From assembly GCA_963920525.1 (NCBI GenBank), contig OY986435.1:263936962-264000961 (forward strand): a stretch of 64,000 nt of DNA, written 5' to 3'. The translations under genes were made by a program, and so were the position numbers. This DNA is from Dichetophora obliterata (lineage: Eukaryota > Arthropoda > Insecta > Diptera > Sciomyzidae). The notes beneath the pieces were generated by a model that had not been told where the DNA came from, did not search any database, and was given only the letters and a program-made list of their open reading frames with translations. Below, in pieces: positions 8,445 through 37,133 of the stretch (the first letter of the stretch is position 1; every line of letters begins with the position of its first letter).

Positions 8445-8612
8445 ATGGACAATTATTATATAACGCAGGCAGAATTATACTCTTATAACACAGAGGCAGA
8501 CATTAATAGAAAATTAGTAGATTTAATAAGACAAATAAAAAAGGAGGCTAAAACTCAGTATAAATTTAGGAAACTCAAAAACTCAGTTACGATTTTTCCT
8601 ATGAGATTTTAA
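8445..8612 (+). CDS. Small leader ORF (55 aa) upstream of gag
   Basis: An ATG at 8445 opens a 55-codon frame ending TAA at 8610-8612, before gag. The product is charged and helix-prone (MDNYYITQAELYSYN..., then K/R-rich) and lacks any motif I recognise. It could be an upstream ORF controlling gag translation or chance. Splicing from 8363 would remove it from env mRNA. Its reality as a protein is doubtful. Confidence 0.3.
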   Translation: MDNYYITQAELYSYNTEADINRKLVDLIRQIKKEAKTQYKFRKLKNSVTIFPMRF

Positions 8613-8620
8613 GGAAATCC

Positions 8621-8626
<6 letters not shown>

Positions 8627-8650
<24 letters not shown>
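8627..8650 (+). repeat. A24 tract just before gag
   Basis: An uninterrupted run of 24 A residues ends 15 bases upstream of the gag ATG at 8666. It may be an unpaired leader segment favouring internal initiation, or simple expansion. It may vary between copies. Confidence 0.8.
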
Positions 8651-8651
<1 letters not shown>

Positions 8652-8665
8652 TTTTATTAAATTAT

Positions 8666-9790
8666 ATGGACGAAAATTTTGACGCATTAGATAGGGCAAT
8701 CGAAGGTGTCCAACAAGCAATAGATAATCAAAGAGATATCCTAACAAGAGAAAACTTAGAAAATACAAACATGACGGCATCATTGACAATTGACCCCCTC
8801 AAATATCTCGACAGACTCCCTGAGTTTAGCGGAAACACTAGCGAACTTCAAACCTTCATTACACTAATAGACAGAATTTACCCCTTACTGACCCGATATG
8901 ATACCTTAGCACAAAGTATCTTCTCAGACATAATTAAATCTAAATTAACAAAAAAAGCAAAGGAAGCTATTGAAATAGATAGTAATGCTATGTCTTGGAA
9001 GGACATAAAAACGATCCTATTAAATAACTTTTCCGACCGAAAATCGATAGAAGAACTCTTCAATGAGTTGAGAGGAACGACCTTTAGAAATAATAGTGTA
9101 GAATTTTACAACGACTTAAAGTTCATACTTAGGAGACTTAATATAAAGACTAAAACAGAACTATCGACCGCTACAACTGAAGAGGAAATTGACCAAACTG
9201 TTAACTTAAACATAAAAGCCGCTCTTCAGACATTTAAAACAAAACTGCCCGAACCGATGAGGTCAATTTTATATTGCAGAGATCCTAAAACTTTGGAAGA
9301 AGCAATAAACATATTACACGAAGCAAATTATGCTTATTATAGCCCATATAAAACAGAAAACAAACCGAATAGAAGAACTAACGACCAGACCTCTAGACCT
9401 ACAGAACGATATAACAACAATCGACAAAACAAGGATGAACACAATCACAAAAATAATACGACTACTCGTAACAACTACAACAATAACTATTCAAACAATC
9501 CTTACAATACAAACACTAATCGCAATAATTATCAAACACATAATAATTATAACCGCAACAATCGTTACAACAATGAACCAGGTAACTCGTATAACTATAA
9601 CCGAAATAGTGCAAGCAGTTACCACAATAACAACAATAATTATTATAACAACGAAAGGAATAGAAACCATGCTAGAATTAATATTCCCCATCAACCAACG
9701 GTAGAACCGATGGAAATCGGAAAAATTGAAATAAATCCAACAGCCCAAAATTTTCCTTTACCGGCCTCAGAAATAACTTACCACATATAG
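8666..9790 (+). CDS. gag: Errantivirus Gag
   Basis: 374 codons, no internal stop. Residues ~45-220 are the capsid-like helical region (DRLPEFSGNTSELQTFITLI, SWKDIKTILLNNF, LPEPMRSILY) typical of Ty3/gypsy Gag. The tail (~225-345) is extremely Asn/Tyr/Arg-rich and probably binds RNA; there is no CCHC zinc knuckle, as usual in errantiviruses. Gag should assemble the intracellular particle that packages the genomic RNA. The start at 8666 is the first good ATG after the leader and the A tract. The frame ends TAG at 9788-9790 and overlaps the pol frame by 61 nt (9730-9790). A heptamer A AAT TTT at 9748-9754 in the gag frame would allow the -1 shift into pol. Confidence 0.93.
   Translation: MDENFDALDRAIEGVQQAIDNQRDILTRENLENTNMTASLTIDPLKYLDRLPEFSGNTSELQTFITLIDRIYPLLTRYDTLAQSIFSDIIKSKLTKKAKEAIEIDSNAMSWKDIKTILLNNFSDRKSIEELFNELRGTTFRNNSVEFYNDLKFILRRLNIKTKTELSTATTEEEIDQTVNLNIKAALQTFKTKLPEPMRSILYCRDPKTLEEAINILHEANYAYYSPYKTENKPNRRTNDQTSRPTERYNNNRQNKDEHNHKNNTTTRNNYNNNYSNNPYNTNTNRNNYQTHNNYNRNNRYNNEPGNSYNYNRNSASSYHNNNNNYYNNERNRNHARINIPHQPTVEPMEIGKIEINPTAQNFPLPASEITYHI
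9748..9754 (+). promoter_or_regulatory. Candidate -1 frameshift site AAATTTT
   Basis: The heptamer fits X XXY YYZ in the gag reading phase (codons AAT TTT). It sits inside the gag/pol overlap, after the last pol-frame stop (TGA 9727-9729) and before the gag stop. A -1 slip there leads directly into the open pol frame. Confidence 0.65.
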
Positions 9791-12700
9791 AAATAAAAGC
9801 TAAGTTAGGAGTGTTAAGATTCATAATAGATTCGGGAGCGACCCAATCTATAATAAACCCTGGATTATGCGATCCAAAGTGGAATGTACCCACAGGGCCA
9901 ATGAATTTACAAACACTAAAACACATAATAGAAGTTAACGAAAGGGTAGCTATCCCTTGCTTCAAAGAATTTGGTAACATAGACAAAAAATTTGAATTTT
10001 TTGTAAGTAAATTTCATAACATGTATGATGGTATAATTGGAAACAACATATTGATCCCTTTAAACGGTGTGATCAATTTTAAAGAAAATAAACTACTTAT
10101 AGGCGAAAAAGAATTAGAACTAAAATTTTTAACAAATATGGAAAACAAATATTGCTTCACAGATAAAGGTACTTACGAAATTGAAGTACCAGTAACAAAT
10201 AAAGAAGGTTTAGTTTATATTGAAGGAAAGTCTTCCCACGACAAGGAAGTAGAATTAATGCAAGGAATATATGAAGCAAATAATCATAAAATAGAAGCCA
10301 AATTACAAATTAAAAACGACGGAGTAAAAGACGTCGTAGTACATAAACAAGAATCCACTCAAGTTACTAACGAAAATTTCTGCATTTATACATTTGATGA
10401 AAACAACGAAAATTTTACGAAAAAAAAGGAAAATGACAAGCCTCTACTAGGACAAATTAGAATGGATCACCTCAATATAGAAGAAAAAGAAAAATTAATA
10501 AATGTAGTGAAGAAATTTAAAAATATTTTTTATAATGACGATTCGAAAAAGGACCTAACGTTTACAAATGCCCATAAACATGAAATTCGGACTATCGAAC
10601 ATGCTCCTATAGTGGCAAAATCTTATAGGTATCCATACGTTCACAAAAACGAAGTAAGAGATCAAATACGGGAAATGCTTAAAAACAAAATAATACGACC
10701 AAGTCACTCTCCTTATTCAGCGCCAGTCTGGGTAGTTCCAAAGAAAATGGATGCGAGTGGAAGAAAAAAATGGCGCCTAGTTATTGACTATCGGAAACTC
10801 AATGAAGTAACAATAGATGACCGATATCCAATTCCTAATATTGACGAAATATTAGAGAAGCTAGGACGTTGTCAATACTTCACCACATTGGACCTTGCAA
10901 AAGGCTTCCATCAAATTGAAATTTCAGAGAAAGATATTCACAAAACAGCGTTCAGTGTTGAAGGAGGGCATTACGAGTTTCTTCGTATGCCTTTTGGTTT
11001 AAAAACAGCACCAGCCACATTTCAACGGCTGATGAACAACGTTTTATCTGAATACATTAATAAGATCTGCTTGGTATATCTCGACGATATTATAATTTTT
11101 TCCACTTCCCTTACAGAACACATAGAGTCGATAACTAAGGTATTTCAAAAACTCAGAGATGTAAACCTTAAAATACAACTAGATAAGAGTGAATTTCTCA
11201 AACACGAAACCGAGTTCCTTGGTCACATTGTAACAAAAGACGGTATTAAACCTAATCCAAGAAAAATAGAATGTGTCCAGAAATTCCCTCTCCCAAAAAA
11301 CCAAAAAGCAATTAAAGAATTTTTAGGACTAACAGGTTATTACCGCAAGTTTATTAAAGACTATGCGCGAATAGCTAAGCCCATGACCAAGTATTTGAAG
11401 AAAGATATAAAAATGAACATAGAAGACCCTGAATATACAAACGCATTCGAAACATTGAAAAAACATTTAGTTAACGATCCAGTCCTTGTTTACCCTGATT
11501 TTAAAAAACAATTTACGTTACAAACCGACGCAAGCAATTATGCTTTAGGGGCCGTGTTATCCCAAGATGGACATCCAACATGCTTTGCAAGCAGAACGCT
11601 CAACGACCACGAGCAAAATTATAGCACAATCGAGAAGGAACTACTTGCCATTGTTTGGGGAACACAATATTTTAGACCTTATTTATTCGGAAATAAATTT
11701 ATAGTGGAAACCGACCATCGTCCTTTGACATGGCTTTTTTCAATGAAGGAGCCCAATTCCAAGCTTATTCGGTGGAGACTTCGTCTAAGCGAATATGATT
11801 TCGAAATAAAATACAAAAAAGGCATACAAAACGGAAACGCCGATGCGCTATCTCGCGCCATGATTAATTTCAACGAATTCGAGACACCAATAATAAATGA
11901 GAGTAAATGCCCATTAAATATGTACAAAAACCAAATCATTTTTAAGAAAACCGACTCAGGATCTTTAAAAATTAAAAATCAAAAAATATTTAGTTCGAAT
12001 AGAAAAATAATTTATATAAGAAATATAGATAGCGACACAATCATAACAATAGTGAAAAACCATTTTAAGCCAACAGGTACAAACGCCGTATACTTCGATG
12101 ATGAAGTAATTTTAGAAAAATTTAAAGAGGTGATAAAAAACAATTTTAATAATAACAATGGTACCTTTAAAATTATGAGATGCACAAAGGTTCTGAGAGA
12201 CATAACAGATGAAAATGAACTTACTAATTGCATAGAAACAGAACATTTGAAGAATAATCATAGGGGCATTAACGAGAACTTTCTAGAACTAAAAGACGTC
12301 ATATATAACCCAAAATTAAAGCAAAGAATTACCCAATTCATCAACAATTGCGAAATTTGTAATGTTGAGAAATACGAAAGGCATCCTGTAAAACAGAAAT
12401 TTAAATTAACGGAAACACCCGAAAAACCAAGAGACACGATCCACATGGACGTTTTCTATAGTTTAAACAAAAACATTTTCTTAACCACGATAGATAAATT
12501 TTCAAAGCATGCTCAAGCCATCAAAATATCCAGTCGATCATGGACAGAATTTAAACGAGCTGTTATGCAATACATAAGTAATGTAGGACATTTTAACAAC
12601 CTAATTGTAGACAACGAACTTGGCTTTAAAGCACTACCCTTGCAAGAATTCCTTAGAGAACAGAATATCAATATCCACTTCACATCAAATAATAATCACA

Positions 12701-13170
12701 CATCGAATTCCGATGTCGAACGTTTGCATAATACCCTAAATGAACATTTGAGACTTTTGAGACACGACCCAAATAAGGATATTGACACAGTAGAAGAAAA
12801 AATTTATAAAGTAATTAATTTTTATAACAATAGCATTCATTCAACAACAGGCCGTAAACCAATTGACTTCAGTAATGGGAATATAAACCAAGATGAATAT
12901 TCCTTAATAAAAGAACGAATTAAAAATATAAAAGAACGTACAATTAATACACAAAATAAAAATAGGGAAGATGTTGAAATACAAACGGGACCAGTATTTC
13001 TAAAAGAAATAAGAGGTGGCAAAAACTATGCCAAATTTAGGAAAATAATCGCAGAACCATTAGATGAAGAACACATTGTCACAACAAAAGGACACAAATA
13101 CTATAAATCCCATTTGAAAAAACCAAAGAAATTTCAAGATAATAATAACCCAACAATAAAAATAATTTAA
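9754..13170 (+). CDS. pol: Errantivirus Pol (protease, RT, RNase H, integrase)
   Basis: The pol frame is open from 9730 to the TAA at 13168-13170. Its first conserved motif follows closely, so I place entry at the slip site and not at the in-frame GTG 9811. Counting residues from 9811: aspartic protease DSGAT at 7-11; reverse transcriptase with LDLAKGFHQIEI and the YLDD active site at ~423-426; RNase H with TDAS at ~571 and ETDHRPLTW at ~633; integrase zinc finger H-x5-H (~812) and C-x2-C (~847); and DD35E at D880, D934, E970 (HMDVF, VDNELGF, SDVERLH). All catalytic residues are present and no stop or frameshift was found, so the enzyme set appears functional. Pol would be made as a Gag-Pol fusion inside the particle. 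Confidence 0.95.
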   Translation, partial: SFTGLRNNLPHIEIKAKLGVLRFIIDSGATQSIINPGLCDPKWNVPTGPMNLQTLKHIIEVNERVAIPCFKEFGNIDKKFEFFVSKFHNMYDGIIGNNILIPLNGVINFKENKLLIGEKELELKFLTNMENKYCFTDKGTYEIEVPVTNKEGLVYIEGKSSHDKEVELMQGIYEANNHKIEAKLQIKNDGVKDVVVHKQESTQVTNENFCIYTFDENNENFTKKKENDKPLLGQIRMDHLNIEEKEKLINVVKKFKNIFYNDDSKKDLTFTNAHKHEIRTIEHAPIVAKSYRYPYVHKNEVRDQIREMLKNKIIRPSHSPYSAPVWVVPKKMDASGRKKWRLVIDYRKLNEVTIDDRYPIPNIDEILEKLGRCQYFTTLDLAKGFHQIEISEKDIHKTAFSVEGGHYEFLRMPFGLKTAPATFQRLMNNVLSEYINKICLVYLDDIIIFSTSLTEHIESITKVFQKLRDVNLKIQLDKSEFLKHETEFLGHIVTKDGIKPNPRKIECVQKFPLPKNQKAIKEFLGLTGYYRKFIKDYARIAKPMTKYLKKDIKMNIEDPEYTNAFETLKKHLVNDPVLVYPDFKKQFTLQTDASNYALGAVLSQDGHPTCFASRTLNDHEQNYSTIEKELLAIVWGTQYFRPYLFGNKFIVETDHRPLTWLFSMKEPNSKLIRWRLRLSEYDFEIKYKKGIQNGNADALSRAMINFNEFETPIINESKCPLNMYKNQIIFKKTDSGSLKIKNQKIFSSNRKIIYIRNIDSDTIITIVKNHFKPTGTNAVYFDDEVILEKFKEVIKNNFNNNNGTFKIMRCTKVLRDITDENELTNCIETEHLKNNHRGINENFLELKDVIYNPKLKQRITQFINNCEICNVEKYERHPVKQKFKLTETPEKPRDTIHMDVFYSLNKNIFLTTIDKFSKHAQAIKISSRSWTEFKRAVMQYISNVGHFNNLIVDNELGFKALPLQEFLREQNINIHFTSNNNHTSNSDVERLHNTLNEHLRLLRHDPNKDIDTVEEKIYKVINFYNNSIHSTTGRKPIDFSNGNINQDEYSLIKERIKNIKERTINTQNKNREDVEIQTGPVFLKEIRGGKNYAKFRKIIAEPLDEEHIVTTKGHKYYKSHLKKPKKFQDNNNPTIKII

Positions 13171-13205
13171 ATATTTTAAGACTTAATATTTCGTATATTT
13201 TTTTT

Positions 13206-13207
13206 AG
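13206..13207 (+). promoter_or_regulatory. Candidate env splice acceptor
   Basis: TATATTTTTTTTAG|GAAATGG is a strong pyrimidine tract plus AG, placing the exon start three bases before the env ATG. Errantiviral env is known to come from a spliced subgenomic RNA. Confidence 0.65.
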
Positions 13208-13210
13208 GAA

Positions 13211-14779
13211 ATGGACGTATCCATGTTAATTTTAATTTCACTAACGACATATGTACCGACGACCTTTTCACAGACGCTGGAGGTTCAAAATCTAAACGAA
13301 AATAACGGTTTTGTCAATATAAAGATGGAAAATATCAAAATAATTATAAACTATGAAAAAGTACTTCACATAATTAACGTGACACAATACGATGAGACGA
13401 AGGAACATATTTGGGACAACATTAAACTAATGACAAACAAATCCAACTTAGAAGGACCAATGCTAAATTCAGTCCTACATAACTACAGAAACCTAGAAGT
13501 AAAATTACACAATCTACTCCCGCAGACAAGAAGCAAACGAGGACTCTTTAACATAGTCGGCAAAGGCCTTAAATACATTACAGGAACTATGGACGCTGAC
13601 GATGAAAAACATATTATTGAACAACTCGAAACTCTAAAGGGAAATAATAAAAATCTCATTACGGAAAATAATAAACAAGTACGCATTAACACGGACATAA
13701 TTAGACAAATCCAAAATATTACGGATCACATTAAAAAACAACAAAAAACCATAAAAGAATATGTAGGAACATGGTCAGACGAAGTTAGCAATAGAATAAT
13801 ATCAATAGAAGATGAAGTAAGATACATGCAATATCTTTATCAAATTAATTATGACATCAGCCTACTCATTAATCACATAGATGATATAGAACAGATTCTT
13901 CTCAATAGCAGACTTGGTGTTCTAGGTAGAAACATTCTGACAAATGACGAATTTAGAAACATAACAGACATTGACACATTAGCAAACATAAAGATTTCAG
14001 TTGCTTCATTTAACAGAAAAATTGTAATAATAGTTTTGATTCCAAGATTCGTAGAAAATAATTACTCAAAAATTCTTATTGAACCCATACCTAACAAAAA
14101 TAAAAAATCCTTATATGTAAAAGAAAATGAAATTATAACAGACAACCACGGCAATTTATATTACGCGGAAGTAAAACAAAATTTACAGAGAAACTTAAGA
14201 AAACTTGAAAACCAATGTTTATATAATATTTTTAAAATAAAGGAAGCAAAATGTACTTTTAAAGAAGATACAACCACTCAACTAAAAGAAATAAGAAATG
14301 GATTAATTATTGTAAAAAATATAAAAAATACTGTAATCTTACATAATTGTAACGAGTTTAATACTATTGTAGAAGGAACATACATAATTAAATTTGAAAA
14401 TTGTTATATTAAAATTAATAATAAAACCTACAAAAATTTTGAAATAAAGGTTAAAGACCATATAATATTACCGAATCTACATGTATCTATCAAGGAAGAC
14501 GTCTTAAACACTAAACTTGAATTCGATAATATTCATCTACAAAATATCGAAAACAATAGAAAAGACATCACGGAAATTAATAAAAATAATTTTCTAAAAA
14601 ATACTTTAAATATAAGCACTTTGCTTATCATAATTTTAATAATTTTTGCTCTTTCAATAAAAACTAAAAATCTTTGTTCAAAGACCACTGTCTTAGAAAT
14701 ATCTTCGTCGGAGCCTCAAGCTAATGGTGGGGGAGTTATAGCAAACCCCTTCCTTCCCGGCAAAACTAATGTAATATAA
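13211..14779 (+). CDS. env: Errantivirus envelope (baculovirus F-like fusion protein)
   Basis: 522 codons, uninterrupted. An N-terminal hydrophobic signal peptide (~1-20) is followed by an extracellular region with N-glycosylation sites. The furin-type site RSKR|G (107-110) directly precedes a glycine- and hydrophobe-rich fusion-peptide-like stretch ending GTMDADD. A long helical/coiled region (~140-230) follows, and a single membrane span lies at ~468-487. This order is that of insect errantivirus Env and the homologous baculovirus F proteins, which mediate membrane fusion. The last 46 bases lie inside the 3' LTR, and the stop is LTR-encoded. All key elements look intact; infectivity cannot be judged from sequence. 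Confidence 0.92.
   Translation: MDVSMLILISLTTYVPTTFSQTLEVQNLNENNGFVNIKMENIKIIINYEKVLHIINVTQYDETKEHIWDNIKLMTNKSNLEGPMLNSVLHNYRNLEVKLHNLLPQTRSKRGLFNIVGKGLKYITGTMDADDEKHIIEQLETLKGNNKNLITENNKQVRINTDIIRQIQNITDHIKKQQKTIKEYVGTWSDEVSNRIISIEDEVRYMQYLYQINYDISLLINHIDDIEQILLNSRLGVLGRNILTNDEFRNITDIDTLANIKISVASFNRKIVIIVLIPRFVENNYSKILIEPIPNKNKKSLYVKENEIITDNHGNLYYAEVKQNLQRNLRKLENQCLYNIFKIKEAKCTFKEDTTTQLKEIRNGLIIVKNIKNTVILHNCNEFNTIVEGTYIIKFENCYIKINNKTYKNFEIKVKDHIILPNLHVSIKEDVLNTKLEFDNIHLQNIENNRKDITEINKNNFLKNTLNISTLLIIILIIFALSIKTKNLCSKTTVLEISSSEPQANGGGVIANPFLPGKTNVI
14723..14733 (+). promoter_or_regulatory. Polypurine tract
   Basis: AATGGTGGGGG ends exactly at the 3' LTR boundary and would prime plus-strand synthesis. 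It is coding: it lies inside env. Confidence 0.7.
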
Positions 14780-19871: not shown

Positions 19872-19876
19872 CGTAG
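19872..19876. repeat. Transib target duplication CGTAG (left)
   Basis: CGTAG sits just outside the left end and again at 23724-23728. A 5-bp duplication is the size made by Transib and RAG transposition. Confidence 0.85.
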
Positions 19877-19909
19877 CACAGTGTGGCGTTTCATACAAGT
19901 TAGACAGCA
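19877..19909 (+). repeat. Transib left TIR
   Basis: CACAGTGTGGCGTTT, then a divergent stretch, then TTAGACAGCA. With a 23-bp spacer after the heptamer the next nine bases are GCAGAATTT. Confidence 0.85.
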
Positions 19910-20503
19910 GAATTTCTTTTATGATTTTAAACGATAGAGTACGCAAAAACAAGCAAAGAAATGTAAGGCAAGTGGGGATCTATTTTGACCCCTGGGGAGT
20001 TATTGGTTTTTTATTTTTTTTCGGAGGTTGTTTCACTCAAAACACTCCTTCATTTTAAGTTTTCAACGAAGAATTTTTAAAATAGCTTTTTTAAAGAATA
20101 GTTATAATATTTTTTAATAAATAATAAAATATGCAACATTAGAAGAGATTTATGTCTTAAACTTTTTTGCGGTCAAACCAGCAAGTTGAGAAAGAAAATG
20201 CACTATTTTTAAGTTTAAAGTATATTTTTTTAAAAAAAATACCGACTGAACCTGAAGTTTTTATTAAAAATTATAATTTCTCAAAAAATTTACGTGATAA
20301 AAAAATGATATCTTTTTTATTTTACTTGAATTTTTAATAAAATAAAAATAATAAAATATAACCTCCTGAACTTAATTTAAAATTCAATGCAACTTTAGTT
20401 ATATATAAAGCTAAGCTTCAGTCTTTTTGTTCTTGTATTATAAATCCATCTACTCTGATTCGTAATCTAAAGATGTATCAGAAAATGAACTGATTTCTTC
20501 CTA

Positions 20504-22365
20504 CTATATAAGAAATTTTATCATCACTAGGGTAAAAATTTTATGTTTTCTCGAAGGCTTTTTCCAGTATAAATTTATTAATGGGTCTGAAGAAATCAAC
20601 AACATATTGAAAATATCTCTATTTTCAAGAACCCTTGATGATTTCCGCGTATTGCACGTAGGAAAACGTCTGCAATCTTTATTACGGGCTTCCTGAGCCT
20701 CCTCTGATAATTGACCAATAGGTACAACACATTGTTTTATAATTTTTTAGCCATGGCAAAGAATTTTTCGGACACTAACTGGCATGCAATACGAGCCGTA
20801 TAAATTTAAATATAATATCCTGGTTTCTTCAAGAAAATTCTGGAAGGCTTTTATATTAATTTCATTTCCTGACGATATGCAACCAAGGATAATATTAAAT
20901 TTTTTAATTAACGTTACATCAATTCCCAGTATATCAGCCGATTTCTCGGGATTTTTAAAAAATGTTCTTGCTGTATTTCCATCATGGGTTTGGTTTGCAT
21001 AATTCAATTAATATACCCAATTCTTTTTTAAAACGTGATTAAATGATTTTTTTTTCTATAACAAACCTATCCGAAGGTGCTCGTATTGCCCATTTTCTGA
21101 CATCCAAACGATATTCTATGTGCAAAAGGCATTCAAAAGTATTGATCCAGGCGTGCAATGTTAACAAGCCATATCGATAATATTCAACTCTTGGCATTTT
21201 TGAAAGTGTTACATTATTCATCTTACTCGGTTTAGCTCCGTTTTATAGCACGATTGCGTTGGCTTTACAGATTTTAAATAATTTGTTATTTTTCTATCAA
21301 TCATTGTAAGAAGGAAGCTTGTTTTTACCGTAACACTCTTCGAAGCCAATGATAAAGTAAGCGATGTTAAAGCGACGATTTGACTTTCTATATCATTTAA
21401 TTCTGTCACGAATAAGTCCTCAGTCTCTTTTGCTAAAATAAATTTAAAGGGCGACAAACAAATTGTTTTGAACAATTTTGTTTTTATGTCTATGTATATG
21501 TATCGGAGCAAAACAAAAAATGAATAGATATTCATCGGTACTGGATTCATTTTGAAATCGCTGTCTATATCTGCTATAACCTGAGCTTCCATCTCCGCCC
21601 CATTTGCAAACAAGGGTTAATGTGCTACCGTCAGCAAAACATTGATTTGCTATAAACGATGATTGTGATTTAAGCAACCGAAATATTGTTATATCAACAA
21701 TATCTTGCACTTTCACTGCAGCACTAATTTTATTTACAAAAATTGCACTTTCATCTGGATGACATTCTTTTTTCGCTTTTTTCAGCAGATATGTTGATAG
21801 ATATAAGGAATGACAAACTTTCAATGCATCTTTTCTAAGATATTCATAAATACGCATTGTCATTTTGCTATCTATAAAAGAAGCAGAGCTTCCTCGGGTG
21901 TTAACATACGTTGCTTTTTCTTTTCCTGTTCGTTTTCCTGCACGTTGCGACATTTGAGCAGCAAAGCTTAGTTTTTCAGTGGTATATAAGTCCAACAGCT
22001 CTTGCACTTTGCAACGTTTTGTTCGATCACCACAGTTTTCAAGGGATTTTTCTCGTCTGCCTCTTTTAGAACACGTAGATTGGTCCTCCTGAATATCCTC
22101 ATCACCACCCTCCTCTATGATATCAGCCAATTGTAACCAATTCTGACAAGTTTCTACAAACTTGTAACAAACATACATTGAATTTGACCATAATACAAAT
22201 TTAAATGAGTTATACGTCAAGTCTTACCTATCCTTACAACTTCCGGCTTAATAAAATTTATCATTGCAATTTGACAGGTATTTAGAAAGTCTTGTTTTTA
22301 AAATATTCAACATCTTCCAGAGAATAATTTGATTTCTTACAAATATATTGCACCGAAATCTCCAT
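20504..22365 (-). pseudogene. Transib transposase (RAG1 core relative), frameshifted
   Basis: Reading 22365 to 20504, motifs appear in family order: an N-terminal start MEISVQYICKKSNYSLEDVE (ATG 22363-22365); VLWSNSMYVCYKFVETCQNW; a basic linker; CKWGGDGSSGYS with the first catalytic Asp (about 21591); FKFILAKETEDL; LLTMIDRK with the second Asp (about 21297); QSCYK...KMNNV, the damaged zinc-finger strand; YGLLTLHAWINTFECLLH; DGNTARTFF; MPVSVRKILCHG; and PIGQLSEEAQEARNKD with the catalytic Glu (about 20700). The frame switches near 22290, 22228, 21460, 21240 and 21020, and stops interrupt at about 21040 and 20745, so it is inactive. The catalytic D, D and E codons are still readable. The longest open piece is 21444-22220. 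Homology to RAG1 (SEGNES-type Glu motif, FARK-like NTAR motif) is by pattern recognition. Confidence 0.82.
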
Positions 22366-22694
22366 TCTTTGATTTTTAGGAACACAGCAACATACTTAAA
22401 AAACTCATTGCGAGCTAAACAACCCTTTTAGAATCTATTTCAATTCAAATTTGTTTAATAACCACTTAAATAATTTAATGTGTCTCCAAATTAAACTTTT
22501 CACTTCGATTCTAACATTAGCAATAATCATAGACTAATTTGTGTCAATAACCAAAAACATTTGCTTAAAAACAACAACATTTCAGAAAAAAGATATTTTC
22601 AAAAAATGTAAACATAAGCAAAGTTAAACAACCGAGTGACTTTCAATGCATTTTTATTAAAAAAAGCAACAACAAAATCAACAAATGCACTTAA

Positions 22695-22922
22695 CCCTGC
22701 TGTTAGATTAGGACCATTTGGTCCATTTTTTGGCTTGTTTCTTTTATAACTTATGAATGGAGGCATATATTGCCAATAAGATTAGGCTCACGTGACTTTT
22801 TTATAAAACAGTGTTGTTTCCATAAATTCAGCTGTCTGTCATAAAACAAGACTGAGAAAAATTAAAACTTGCTTATCTTGGATTAGGGACCATTCGTACA
22901 TTTTTTTAATCTAACAGCAGGG
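22695..22922. mobile_element. piggyBac-type MITE, 228 bp, nested in Transib
   Basis: TTAA at 22691-22694 and 22923-22926 flank a body whose ends are perfect inverted repeats (CCCTGCTGTTAGATTA). It includes GGACCATTTGGTCC near the left end and GGGACCATTCG near the right. No coding sequence. It is younger than the Transib copy that contains it. Confidence 0.85.
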
Positions 22923-23708
22923 TTAAGCTATGATAACATTAATCTACTATTGTTGTTAGTTTGCTTATTTTTTGATCATTTCTTAAAAGTTAAATAATAT
23001 TTTTATTAGGAATAAAGAGTCATCAATTGTGAAAGGTTAAAAAATATATGGAGGGGGTAGGAATTGGGGTGTGCGAAAAAGGGGACATGGAAGGGAGATG
23101 ATATAGAGTTATATTTGCATTTAAATTTAATTGCATTGCACTAAAATATTGAAGAACAGTATGGAATTCTGGTAGCTTTTTTTTAGTGTGGAAGCTGTAT
23201 TAATGTAAAACAAACTGCATACAATATTCGCGAAAATAAGGGGTTACAACCCAAAACCACTTGAAAAAAAAATAGATGACAAATCTGTGAGTAATAGTAC
23301 ATTAAAATTAAATCTTAGCAAAGCTTGGCAGTAAGTCTAATTTTACATTGAACATGACAAAATTTACAGTTTTCGGAAATTCAACCATATCTTAAAAAAA
23401 AAATACAATTAATGGATACATTATTTCTAAATGTTCAAAGGTATTATAAGACATACCGTTTTCAAAAAGTGGTCTACGGTTCTTGTGCGGCTCTTTGTTC
23501 CGGAGTTATTTAGGGCTGCATTTAATTGTGATGTAGGGAAGCTAAAAGGCAAAGTTTTTCATACAAATTCTGGTAACTTTGGTTTCACTCAGGCTATCTG
23601 ATTGAAATTTACACGTAAGGAAGACATGCCACTCAATAGCTTACATTCTTAATTTCAAATCATTCCGTCTACTCAAACCGGAATTATTTTTTGCCGTCTA
23701 AATAGGCC

Positions 23709-23723
23709 AAACGCCACACTGTG
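23709..23723 (-). repeat. Transib right TIR
   Basis: Reverse complement reads CACAGTGTGGCGTTT, then after a 22-bp spacer counted from the heptamer GCAAAAAAT, an A-rich nonamer-like block. Confidence 0.85.
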
Positions 23724-23775
23724 CGTAGGTTCGACACCCAGCTCCAACAAAAAACATTTTTCTGCTCGTTATTTT
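23724..23775 (+). repeat. SINE copy b, right part (split by Transib)
   Basis: CGTAGGTTCGACACCCAGCT, then AACAAAAAACATTTTTCTGC, corresponds to B box plus tail of the copy at 47786-47862. The left part (AATAAGCTTTCGGGGACGTA) ends at 19876. The Transib insertion thus lies 0-5 bases from the tRNA-like B box. Confidence 0.55.
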
Positions 23776-25872: not shown

Positions 25873-26741
25873 CAGTTGCGGTCAAAATATTAGTAGCGCC
25901 CTTATATTCATATATGTTTCGATAAATAATACTAGTATACGAATTTCGGATCCGGTAAGTCCATTTTCATTCCTATATGTACTTTCAACACTCGTTCCAA
26001 CTCCGTACTCAGTTTCCTCCTATATTGTAAAACTTTCAAGATACAGGGTGTTTTACGGTTTTGGTACGTGTTTAGTATTATTGATCTAGAATCTAAACTA
26101 CTCACCATAAAATAAAAAATAATATTTTTTATTTTAGAAAAAATATCAACCTTTCCATCAATATATCAACCACTTTCGTGTCATGTGCTGCAGCTGAGCT
26201 AAAATTTTGTGATTACTCAACGAAATATCAACAAATTTTGTATCTTTTGTTTTAGCGGAGCTGTAATCGTCCAAATTTAAAATGTCTTTTTTTCATGTAA
26301 AAATACACTTAATCAACAGTATTTTTTTAAATTCTAACTTTGCACAGTAACAGCTCCGCTAAAACAAAAGATAGAAAATTTGTAGATATTTTTTTGGATA
26401 ATCTCAAAATTTTTTCTCCGCTACAGCACATGACACGAAAGCGATTGATATACTTATGAAAAATCTGATATTTTTTCTAGAATACAAAATATTATTTTTT
26501 ATTTTATGGTGAGTAGTTTAGATTCTAGATCAATAATACTAAACACGTACCAAAACCGTAAAACACCCTGTATCTTGAAAGTTTTACAATATAGGAGGAA
26601 ACTGAGTACGGAGTTGGAACGAGTGTTGAAAGTACATATAGGAATGAAAATGGACTTACCGGATCCGAAATTCGTATACTAGTATTATTTATCCAAACAT
26701 GTATGAATATAAGGGCGCTACTATTATTTTGACCGCAGCTG
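25873..26741. mobile_element. Tc1-like element that is one long inverted repeat, 869 bp
   Basis: The left end CAGTTGCGGTCAAAATATTA and the right end (complement CAGCTGCGGTCAAAATAATA) are flanked by TA (25871-25872, 26742-26743). The entire length folds back. 25873-26150 matches 26450-26741 with few differences, and the inner parts (about 26180-26280 and 26345-26440) also pair, leaving a ~60-bp loop. No transposase frame; the 75-codon frame at 25862 is a by-product. The CAGT(T/C)G.GGTCAAAA terminus plus TA duplication is typical of Tc1/mariner relatives. Confidence 0.85.
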
Positions 26742-29851: not shown

Positions 29852-32337
29852 TATATAATAAGTTGGGGATTTGCCGAAGCAGACCACAGTAAGTCCCTTT
29901 TCGTCCCCCATTGGACAAAGGGTACTACTGCTCGGAGTACTCGTAAGTGAGCATGCTCCTTGTGTAAGCATCCTTTGTCACCTCAAGCATATCCTTATAG
30001 GTTAGTTGACCAATCTCGGCTTCGCCAATAAATGGGCATCCCAGAGTGGTCAATCTTATGCTTGCCAGCGCCGGACACTGGCACAGAATGTGTGCTGCTG
30101 TTTCCGGCTCCTCTAGGCATAACCTACACGCATCGTCCTCGGTCAGAGTCATCTTCCCGAGATGGTACATGAAGGGACCGTGTCCTGTGACCAGTGCAGT
30201 AAGCCAGCTTAAAGTCCTTCGATTGTATCGGATAACTTTTGCTGCCTCACTACGAGACCACTTCACGGCCGCCTTTGATTGCCTGCAATTAACAGCTTCT
30301 TCCCACCTTGTACTGTGATCCGAGTCCGTCCATTGTTTAACAAGGCCTGCCACCATATTGTCACCTATGGCGATACGTGGTTCTGGTCCACATAATTCTT
30401 CTGCTGATCCTGCTCTTGCTAAAGAATCAGCTTCTTCATTCTGTTCTATGCCAGAGTGTCCTCTCACCCACATAAGTGTGAGCTCATTCGTCTGGGCGCA
30501 CCTATTGAGTTTTGTAAGACATTCTATGGCCAACCTGGAAGTGATGTCTGTCCGTTGCATACACCTAATCACAGACTGATTGTCGAGAGCGATGACAATT
30601 TTCTTGCCACTGATCCGGCCATCTATCAGGTGGTCCAGCGCATGCACTACGCCAAGCATTTCTGCCTGGTATACAGACACAAACCTCCCCAACCTCAGTA
30701 CACAGGATAGGCTTAACTCTTTTGAGTACACGCCTGCCCCGGCCCGGCCATTCATCAGAGAGCCGTCTGTGAATATACTGATATCGCTACCAGCGATTTC
30801 TTCACAAACGGCTTCATCCGTTATAAGAGTTTTATAACATTTTTCTGTTATTTTTACTCTCTGCCTTCCGTCCATAGGCATAAGCACCTCCCTGACATCT
30901 CTCTGTTCAAAATCAAGGATGCGAATATGACCATGTAGGGCCGTTTCCTCATGCCACGTAGCATTTCGCAACATCCTGAGGGCTGACAGCGCCGCTGTTT
31001 TCTTTATTTCTAAATCCAACGGCAGCATACCTAACAGAACCTTCATTGCGCTTGTTGGAGTGGTGCGTATTGCACCTGTTATTCCAACACACGCCAGCCG
31101 TTGGACTCTGTCCAGTCTCTTCTTAATGGTTTTCTGGCTGACTTTTGTTCACCAAATCACCGAAGCATACGTGATGACAGGTCTAACCATCATAGTGTAA
31201 ACCCATTTCATAGCCTCTGGGTTTAGGCCCCATTTGAGAACACAAACGCGTCTGCACTGGAACAGAACCCTCTTGGCTCTTTGAATCCTATCTTCTACAT
31301 GCTCGTTCCAGTTTAGTTTGCTATCAAAGGTTACCCCTAGATATTTAACTTTCGTGGACATGTTGACTTCAACTCCAAAAAGTCTGAGTGGTTCTGTCCT
31401 CAGGCCTAACCTCTTTCTAGTAAAGAGAATATTGTCTGACTTACCTGCGTTTACGGTAAGGCCTTGTTCTCGACACCACTCCTCCACCATTCGGAGTGCT
31501 CCCTTCATGATGTCAGAGATGGTGTCAATGAACTTGCCGCGGACCACCAACGCAATGTCATCTGCATACCCTATCGTGTGTATGCCCGATTCATCCAGTC
31601 TAACCAGTAGTGAGTCCACAGTTATGTTCCACAGGGTTGGCGATAACACCCCGCCCTGGGGACATCCTCTACTTACTCTACCTCTAGTCTTTACTCTACC
31701 ATTCTGCATGTTGACAGCCCTGTGTTTGAGCATATTGTCCACCCAATTTGCTATCATTGGGCTTACATTGCGTTCTGTCAGGGCTTGCCGCAGCCTTCCA
31801 AAGCATATTTTGTCGAAAGCACCCTCGATTTCCATAAATGTGGCCATCGCAATGCCTCCTGAAAATACCTCCTTTTCAGTCACTCTTACTGCTCTATTTG
31901 CATGTTGGCATCTACTCAGAGGATTTTGCATCAGCGAGGTGCTCTCAAGACAGTCAACCATCACTCTTTCCATCGTTTTCAAGAGAAAAGATGTTAGGCT
32001 GATCGGTCTGAACGACTTCGCCTCCGCATAATCTTTTTTTCCGGGCTTCGAAAGAAAGACAACTTTCGCCTCTCTCCAGACTCTCGGAACATACCCAGTC
32101 GCTAGGAAAGTAACGAATATACCCCACAGCCTAGGTGCAATGAGATCTTCCCCCCATTGCATCATAGCAGGGAATATACCGTCCATCCCTGATGTTTTGT
32201 ACGGAGCAAATGAGCGTATAGCACTCCTCACCCCGTCCATAGTGATCAGCCTTTCGACTTCCAGCCTGTCAACCCTGTTCTCTGTCATGTGCAGATTGAA
32301 GGCTTTCCTAACCTTCTTCTTCAGAGATTCGAGTTCC
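29852..32337 (-). mobile_element. 5'-truncated LOA/I-type LINE, 2.5 kb
   Basis: Flanked by a 14-bp duplication (29838-29851, 32338-32351). It runs on the minus strand, is truncated within ORF2 at 32337, and ends with a short 3' UTR and a TATTATATA tail. The clear duplication and near-open frame make it a fairly young insertion. It landed just beyond the 3' end of an older relative (32393-37133) in the same orientation. Confidence 0.85.
29925..32337 (-). pseudogene. LINE ORF2: reverse transcriptase, RNase H, zinc knuckle
   Basis: One frame runs from 32337 to 29925, broken only by TGA at 31146-31148 where WW (TGG TGG) is expected. The RT part (32288-31149) has SGMDGIFPAMMQ, FRPISLTSFLLKTMERV, FMEIEGAFDKI, GGVLSPTLWNI and GYADDIALVV. 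RNase H follows in the second part with all active-site residues in context: FTDGSLM, YQAEM, LDNQSV, RGHSGIE and EADSLA. The C-terminus has a CCHC-like CRLCLEEPETAAHILCQC. The RT plus RNase H plus CCHC order is that of I/LOA-group LINEs. Endonuclease and ORF1 are missing through 5' truncation. The TGG-to-TGA change is the main coding lesion seen. Confidence 0.87.
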
Positions 32338-32392
32338 TTTTGCTTCTATTACTTAAATGATATCAAATAATTCCAATTATATCTGTTTTGAT

Positions 32393-35506: not shown

Positions 35507-37133
35507 TTATGCCTTGAAGATGCTGTAGTAATTTGGCCGTTTGTTTGACTACCTTTTCTTAGGCTCTGCACAAAACAGAGCCGCACCTTCCCCCGTAGGC
35601 ATTTTGGAGCCGTCTGTAAATATTTGCACCACTCATTTGGTTCTAGAAGTGTTCTTTTCTTAGAGTTGACTATTGCGTGAGGTATCATGTAGTCCGTATT
35701 ACTAAGTAGATCCTTGCCAATTGTACAGTGGCCGAAATTTTGATAGTGTATTTTGCTTGCCGCCGTCATGCATTCTGCCATTTTCCCGGCTATTTATTTT
35801 GCGTATATGTCCGGGGTGTCCATACATAAAATGGTTTCAAGCTCTTTAGTTGAAGTTGAATTCAGTGCCCCCGTAACGCATAGCGCTGCCTGTCGCTGAG
35901 TTTTCTTCATGTTCCTAAGGTACGTTGATTTATTCACTGACGGCAACCACATAATATTTCCATAGAGAAAAATAGGGCGAACTTCTGTTACAGCGATCCA
36001 GTGCATCGGAAAGGGCGATTGAAGTAATCTAGGTGCTGCCTTGCATCTTATTGGATGTCTATAGCGCGATGCTATCTTTCTTCACCCTTTATTCTACATT
36101 TATTCTCCTAGATATTCAGACTCCTAGATATTTTGTGTGAGTTTTCGGTATGAGACGAATGTCGCTCATTTTTGGTGCTATCCACGGAAATACCTTGTGC
36201 CTTATTGTGAACCGAACAAGATGCAGTTTTCTCTCCGTTAGTACTTAGACCAATTGAATTTGACCATCTAAGTACCTCCTTGAGTGTGGTCTCCATTATG
36301 GAGCTTACTGTTAATAGAAATTTTCCTGCTATATTTATGCTTATGTCGTCCACATAAACTGTTATGTTCAGGGCTCTATCTTCAAAGTTTTTGAGTATTT
36401 CATTGACAACAAGATTCCATAGTAGGGCGAGAGAGCCCTTTCTCTGGAGTGTCCCACTGCGATCTTCTCTTTCCATGGATTTGGTGCCCCACTCAGCTCG
36501 AACCCTCTTGCAGCTAAGCAACTTGTCTAACCATAGGCTTATAGCTGGTGGAGCCTCTATTGCACGTAATCCACTCAAGATTGCCATAGTTGATACTTTA
36601 CTGAATGCACCAGAGATGTCTAGAAAAGCTTTCAATTGGAAGAAAAGTCATACCAATTGGTCCCGGAGATTTTTATTCCGAGACCAAGTTTATAGCCCAC
36701 AGGATTTTGTCCGATATTATTAAGTCGTTTGAAATCTGAAGCGGGTTTGTCCTGTGTCTTCGTATTGCGAATGTGTTTGCAGCTACAGTACAGTCATCAA
36801 AATGTGCCTTTAAAAGAACTTTAAGGAATTTCTGACTGCTTTCCGTCCGTTTATCATTGTCTCTGTGTAGCTGGCTTTGGAGGGCTGCTTAGAGTGTAGA
36901 TTCCTGAGCCTTGCTATGTCTCTAGTTTTTTCTCTGCTTGAGCAGAAGTTCTTCCAAGAGAATTTTTGTCTTTTTACGCTGCTCACGTTTGTTTTAAAAT
37001 GTTTGAGCCTGCATTTGTATTCCCCCCCACATTTCTTCTTCGTAAGCTTTTTTGGTTTCTTTGCCGAAATATAACAGCTTAAGTCTAATTGCAAAGTTTC
37101 GAGAAATCGTGCTTCAAAGTTTTTAATCGCCAT
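35507..37133 (-). pseudogene. Older LOA/I-type LINE, 5' part (RT)
   Basis: The minus strand carries, in order from 37133: a lysine-rich segment with EKTRDIARLRNLHSKQPSKA (about 36810-37133); KSPGPIGMTF; AFLDISGAFSKV (RT motif A); YVDDISINIAG (active-site box, usually YADD); then RPIFLYGNIMW and QRQAALCVTGALNSTS from the thumb region; then the start of RNase H at 35510-35780. Multiple frame changes, and part of the RT between KSPGP and motif A is deleted. It continues at 33112 after the hAT insertion. Clearly older than the neighbouring LINE copy. Confidence 0.72.

Follow-up and report, generated by a model that had tools for sequence, protein, structure and literature searches.

An old, broken Transib transposon whose ends open with the RSS heptamer

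The element and its boundaries

Positions 19877-23723 of the window (the whole stretch of DNA analysed, 64 kb long) almost certainly hold an old, broken copy of a cut-and-paste DNA transposon of the Transib superfamily. Its membership follows from a transposase homologous to that of HzTransib, a DDE triad, a 5-bp GC-rich target-site duplication (TSD) and TIRs that start with CAC. The reading of its ends as V(D)J signals (RSS) is right for seven bases and unsupported beyond them, an ordinary result for a Transib. The element is delimited by the following features:

19877..23723, transposase on the - strand: Transib element, 3847 bp (~3615 bp once the nested insert and one TTAA are subtracted)
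19872..19876, + strand: left TSD, CGTAG, from sequence reading
23724..23728, + strand: right TSD, CGTAG, from sequence reading
19877..19891, + strand: left TIR, 15 bp, CACAGTGTGGCGTTT; the first 7 bp are the RSS heptamer consensus given in PMC8289069
23709..23723, - strand: right TIR, the identical 15 bp CACAGTGTGGCGTTT, from sequence comparison

CACAGTG opens both termini, at 19877 on the + strand and at 23723 on the - strand. The original prediction had placed the boundaries to the base, with the exact consensus RSS heptamer at each end and a 5-bp CGTAG duplication around them. All three statements hold: the 15-bp ends are identical, both start with CACAGTG, and CGTAG lies on either side at 19872-19876 and 23724-23728.

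Related copies in the genome

The host genome (1.31 Gb in 76 contigs) was searched with the exact 15-mer CACAGTGTGGCGTTT as seed. It occurs 17 times, two of which are the window's own ends, against a single occurrence of the reversed control. The other 15 exact 15-mers are covered by 14 stretches that were examined and are designated below by their locus numbers. Note that this seeding biases the conservation of the seeded ends upward and that the sample is one of copies with a perfect 15-mer. DNA alignment (E<1e-10) relates twelve of the 14 stretches to the element, at 73.7-85.2% identity. L020 contributes no more than 31 bp, the far end of the copy found in L019. L021, whose DNA match is limited to the first ~27 bp and in which two encoded pieces are 43% and 52% identical, is a more distant, divergent Transib lineage that shares the 15-bp end. 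Its right end was not found within 16.9 kb and the locus is counted as single-ended; the partner ends of L011, L014, L015, L017 and L018 were likewise not found within the stretches examined. A match to the end with 2 mismatches inside L016 (position 2033) has no CG flank and was dropped as chance. Copies ending elsewhere were looked for in the 14 stretches and the predicted termini stood, the copies having themselves been found by their exact end.

Among 22 ends, CAC is lost from one, the left end of L010; the remaining TIRs start with CAC and are heptamer-like. No intact copy was seen among the 14 stretches, where the longest stop-free frame holding a whole transposase match is 211 aa (L018), against 489 aa for HzTransib, an element of 3518 bp with a 5-bp TSD according to PMC1852546. 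Viral contigs gave 0 matches for the end pattern and 35 word matches, with no relative among them.

Two copies, L012 and L016, are shortened to ~2.3 and 2.0 kb, have both ends present and carry flanks one base apart; they are internally deleted derivatives of the window element's family. In L019/L020 (G000:C4:104923878-104942415) an identical CGCCG stands on both sides of 18.5 kb, apparently one copy spread over this distance by further insertions.

The relatives also date an insertion inside the window copy:

22691..22926, no strand assigned: nested insert, TTAA + 228 bp with inverted ends CCCTGCTGTTAGATTA + TTAA

From its sequence this insert is probably a piggyBac-like MITE, the name being suggested by the TTAA. 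It is missing from all six relatives whose alignment covers the sequence to the left and right of the site (L009, L012, L013, L016, L019 and L022), in which at most 26 bp lie between the flanking matches, these matches abutting in L012 and L019. The insert sequence finds no match in any of the 14 stretches, and its arrival in this copy thus probably postdates the spread of the family.

Flanking duplications and target sites

Both ends are present in eight copies, the window's included. Four of these (the window, L010, L013 and L019/L020) carry the same 5 bp on either side, and in the other four (L009, L012, L016 and L022) the two flanks differ by one mismatch. When the left and right flanks of the eight copies are re-paired, 4 of the 40320 arrangements agree as well as the observed one. 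Absence of a 5-bp duplication at other sites, which would have spoken against the original prediction, was looked for and is not the case, the flanks agreeing with 0-1 mismatch.

Target preference was read on the + strand from 14 sites, taking the right flank of the eight copies and, for six loci with a single end (L021 among them), their sole flank. C is found at position 1 in 14/14 sites, G at position 2 in 12/14, C at position 4 in 8/14 and G at position 5 in 14/14. If the eight copies are represented by their left flanks, position 1 goes to 13/14 and position 5 to 12/14. The preference is close to CGNCG and fits a known Transib preference, CGNCG being named as such in PMC4735498.

Transposase remains

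The transposase fragments were compared with solved structures (HzTransib is PDB 6pqn) and with Pfam. The reading frame of the window transposase is broken and its matches are distributed over five fragments in broken frames:

21444..22223, - strand: transposase fragment 1, HzTransib chain 22-140, E 2.1e-11
21218..21616, - strand: transposase fragment 2, HzTransib chain 158-226, E 0.0011
21039..21242, - strand: transposase fragment 3, HzTransib chain 229-288, E 3.5e-11
20747..21007, - strand: transposase fragment 4, HzTransib chain 317-398, E 2.5e-16
20504..20746, - strand: transposase fragment 5, HzTransib chain 403-463, E 1.7e-16
21591-21593, - strand: first catalytic Asp, within transposase fragment 1
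21296-21298, - strand: second catalytic Asp, within transposase fragment 2
20690-20692, - strand: catalytic Glu, within transposase fragment 5

The HzTransib transposase is the best or sole match of every fragment (5/5) among solved structures. The five fragments are colinear with it over their readable parts; the C-terminus of the window copy is not readable. A RAG1-like transposase relic had been put forward as confirming the family, and the five minus-strand fragments bear this out by matching HzTransib with E from 1e-3 to 2e-16. A better match to a non-Transib family was looked for in solved structures and Pfam, the two collections searched, and HzTransib stayed the best or sole match. On the opposing side, Pfam gave the six fragments compared with it no match with an E of up to 1, save for a single sub-threshold DUF.

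The catalytic residues of HzTransib are reported in PMC6941560 as D126, D225 and E436. By hand count in the printed alignments, the chain numbering of this triad runs 17 lower throughout (109, 208 and 419), and the alignment makes D, D and E readable in the window copy at the positions of D126, D225 and E436.

Upstream of the first catalytic Asp, fragment 1 of the window copy has a GRRE stretch where relatives have [G/D/S]RP. Four relatives can be read at the window's GRR position, with GRP in L018 and L013, DRP in L009 and SRP in L019; the RP motif is absent from a second, overlapping alignment of L013 in another frame. A conserved DRTKRCKVQELL stretch follows the RP position in the window, L009 and L018. 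A GRP-bearing equivalent of the NBD is described in Transibs (PMC9435367). Compared with RAG1 structures, the N-terminal region matched no RAG1 chain in single-sequence searches or in searches with a three-member profile, and RAG1 NBD homology of the RP stretch was rejected on this result. The stretch is a motif-level lead, a hint in which any role assigned to the region would rest on a short motif.

The inner block of the ends and the nonamer

The RSS consensus combines the heptamer CACAGTG and the nonamer ACAAAAACC, as given in PMC8289069. Inward of the TIRs the two ends of the element share a second block, TTAGAC(A/G)GCA(G/A)AA, one base out of register, and the nonamers of the original prediction overlap it:

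19900..19912, + strand: inner end block, left, TTAGACAGCAGAA; near-register match between the ends, similar block in relatives
23689..23701, - strand: inner end block, right, TTAGACGGCAAAA; near-register match between the ends, similar block in relatives
19907..19915, + strand: predicted left 'nonamer' GCAGAATTT; 23-bp spacer, 4/9 to the consensus
23686..23694, - strand: predicted right 'nonamer' GCAAAAAAT; 22-bp spacer, 6/9 to the consensus

The match between the blocks in register (within 1 base) is equalled by 100 of 20000 random window pairs. An unrestricted local alignment is less telling, its score being reached by 791/5000 random window pairs and 353/5000 shuffled pairs.

Likeness to the nonamer was assessed against random 60-mers from the window, which has 32% GC, with six spacers (11-13 and 22-24). 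Against ACAAAAACC, the window ends score at best 4/9 on the left and 6/9 on the right over these six spacers. The chance that one end reaches at least 6 with the other at least 4 is ~14%, and that of a summed score of at least 10 is ~21%. Among random places, one spacer gives a score of at least 5 in 9%, at least 6 in 2.4% and at least 7 in 0.4%; six spacers give these scores in 35%, 12% and 2.2%, respectively. Of the 22 ends (all ends listed, with the one chance match in L016 dropped), two score 7/9 at their own spacer, two score 6, ten score 5 and eight at most 4.

Could the ends be true bipartite RSS-like signals (heptamer and nonamer, 22/23 spacer) that keep an ancestral RSS architecture? 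This is unlikely. The heptamer is exact and an A-rich second block lies at 22-23 bp in both ends and in relatives, 14 of the 22 ends reaching at least 5/9 at their own spacer; the ends share descent, however, and cannot be counted as 22 separate tests. The commonest family blocks, GCAGAAATT on the left and GCAGAAAAT on the right, are at 5/9 to the nonamer consensus, a score found at 9% (one spacer) or 35% (six spacers) of random places, and the window's own pair has the 14-21% chance given above. Higher likeness is found at two ends, both at 7/9 and thus two bases short of a full RSS, a level that 0.4% of random places reach at one spacer: the left end of L021 (L021:296-340), which reads CACAGTG-23 bp-ACAAAAATA, and the right end of L022 (L022:3434-3480), a main-family copy, which reads CACAGTG-22 bp-ACAGAAACT and whose left end is at 5/9. 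The four relatives with [G/D/S]RP and the GRP-bearing NBD equivalent described in Transibs (PMC9435367) also speak for bipartite signals. Against them stand the HzTransib TIRs, which according to PMC8289069 resemble the heptamer and have little or no similarity to the nonamer, and the spacers, which are almost symmetric (23 bp left, 22 bp right) and lack the 12/23 asymmetry.

The relatives weigh further against the nonamer in the window copy. The block is kept in five of eight other right ends (L009, L010, L012, L013 and L022), all of which have G, not the window's A, as fourth base; it is altered in L016 and L017 and interrupted in L020. Two left ends (L012 and L018) carry A at that fourth place. 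Since the other kept right ends have G, one base of the nonamer likeness of the window's right end is probably a change in this copy. Nonamer similarity was rejected as evidence after the chance tests and this comparison. The original claim that the ends read like V(D)J signals is thereby retained for the 7-base heptamer, and for the spacers of 23 bp before GCAGAATTT and 22 bp before GCAAAAAAT, which are as it stated; it is unsupported for the nonamer, and the spacers form no 12/23 pair. A nonamer spotted by eye in a genome of 32% GC is often chance.

It is quite doubtful that a small group of Transib lineages in this genome, sharing CACAGTGTGGCGTTT, uses the second block (22-23 bp) as a working nonamer read by an RP-bearing N-terminal domain. 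If it did, bipartite heptamer-nonamer recognition would belong to these Transibs too and not only to RAG.

Relation to other Transibs and to RAG

HzTransib (Helicoverpa zea; PDB 6pqn) and the window element have in common the superfamily, the transposase with its DDE residues, a 5-bp TSD and a size of ~3.5 kb. They belong to distant families, with similarity at the protein level in fragments only, and the window copy is broken. The TSD is GCTCG in the described copy of HzTransib and C(G/A)NNG in the window family. The Drosophila elements hopper and transib2 are likewise Transibs with a 5-bp TSD, although the target motif reported for them is CCANTGG (PMC3276498) and that of the window family is CGNCG-like. 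Published Transib TIRs are described as having symmetric spacers of 20-22 bp, plus a few of 12/23 (PMC8355894). Transib Subgroup I is placed nearer to RAG1L than Subgroup II, which comprises most previously known Transibs (PMC9435367). Membership of Subgroup II would show in loss of the alpha11-alpha12 RAG2-binding region and in the CTT2 tail.

The likeness to RAG1 and the V(D)J RSS consists of the first 7 bp, CACAGTG, which equal the consensus heptamer of PMC8289069. The window nonamer, in contrast, is not above chance, there is no 12/23 pair and RAG1 gives no sequence match: at E up to 10, none of the RAG1 chains among solved structures was matched by the five fragments.

It is highly improbable that the element is a RAG-like transposon (RAG1L-RAG2L, ProtoRAG type) instead of a Transib. 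A CAC start and a 5-bp TSD are common to both kinds, RAGL transposons such as ProtoRAG included (PMC7204232), but the fragments match HzTransib and no RAG1 chain, and the size of the element is near that of a one-gene Transib. No ORF of at least 130 aa is present in it besides two transposase fragments, and no RAG2-like gene was seen, a decayed copy being a weak test for such a gene. ProtoRAG differs moreover in its heptamer, CACTATG, and in its spacers of 27/31 bp (PMC8289069). That an unrelated relic lies within an inverted repeat formed by chance can be dismissed: CACAGTG alone occurs seven times in the window, which is also rich in other inverted repeats of at least 15 bases (mostly A/T-rich or within repeats), but relatives at other loci carry the same ends with matching flanks.

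The Transib assignment agrees with the original prediction of a fossil Transib. Its further description as a fossil of the proposed ancestor of RAG is loose, the element being rather a relative of that proposed ancestor. Publications have noted the likeness between Transib and the RSS since 2005 (cited in PMC8355894). The superfamily is already accepted as a relative of RAG1, and the picture of RAG origin is unchanged. To this superfamily the analysis adds one decayed Transib family with clear boundaries, for which several copies supply data on ends and target sites.

Proposed transposition and decay

In vitro, HzTransib is described as generating a hairpin and a blunt signal end (PMC6941560). 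By homology with HzTransib, an intact DDE transposase would have bound both ends of the window element and nicked 5' of CAC. Cutting would have gone through a hairpin on the flanking DNA, leaving a blunt transposon end, and the CGTAG duplication would have arisen when the released ends were joined with a stagger of 5 bp. The CAC heptamer would then be the mark of the cut site. The inner block TTAGACGGCAGAA may serve as a further point of contact, perhaps with the N-terminal region, where relatives have the RP motif. Later the copy would have accumulated frame breaks and stops as it decayed, and would also have received the TTAA-flanked MITE.

Other elements in the window

Scans of the 64-kb window for tRNA genes and Rfam families found none. 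Positions 8570-14779 code for three successive frames: one without a Pfam match, a pol and a Gypsy-family envelope. In pol, reverse transcriptase and RNase H are strong, protease and H2C2 are above the cut-off and the integrase core is below it; in the envelope, Baculo_F is just below the cut-off. This is an errantivirus-like LTR element. Together with the closest matches, its Gypsy-family envelope suggests an insect-type genome. Frames with reverse transcriptase and RNase H lie on the minus strand at 29925-32345 and 36108-36647, which we infer to be of LINE type. A long inverted repeat at 25873-26741, with ends CAGTTGCGGTCAAAAT / CAGCTGCGGTCAAAAT, TA flanks and a matching arm of ~208 bp (from a rough merge), looks like a foldback element of the Tc1/mariner type.
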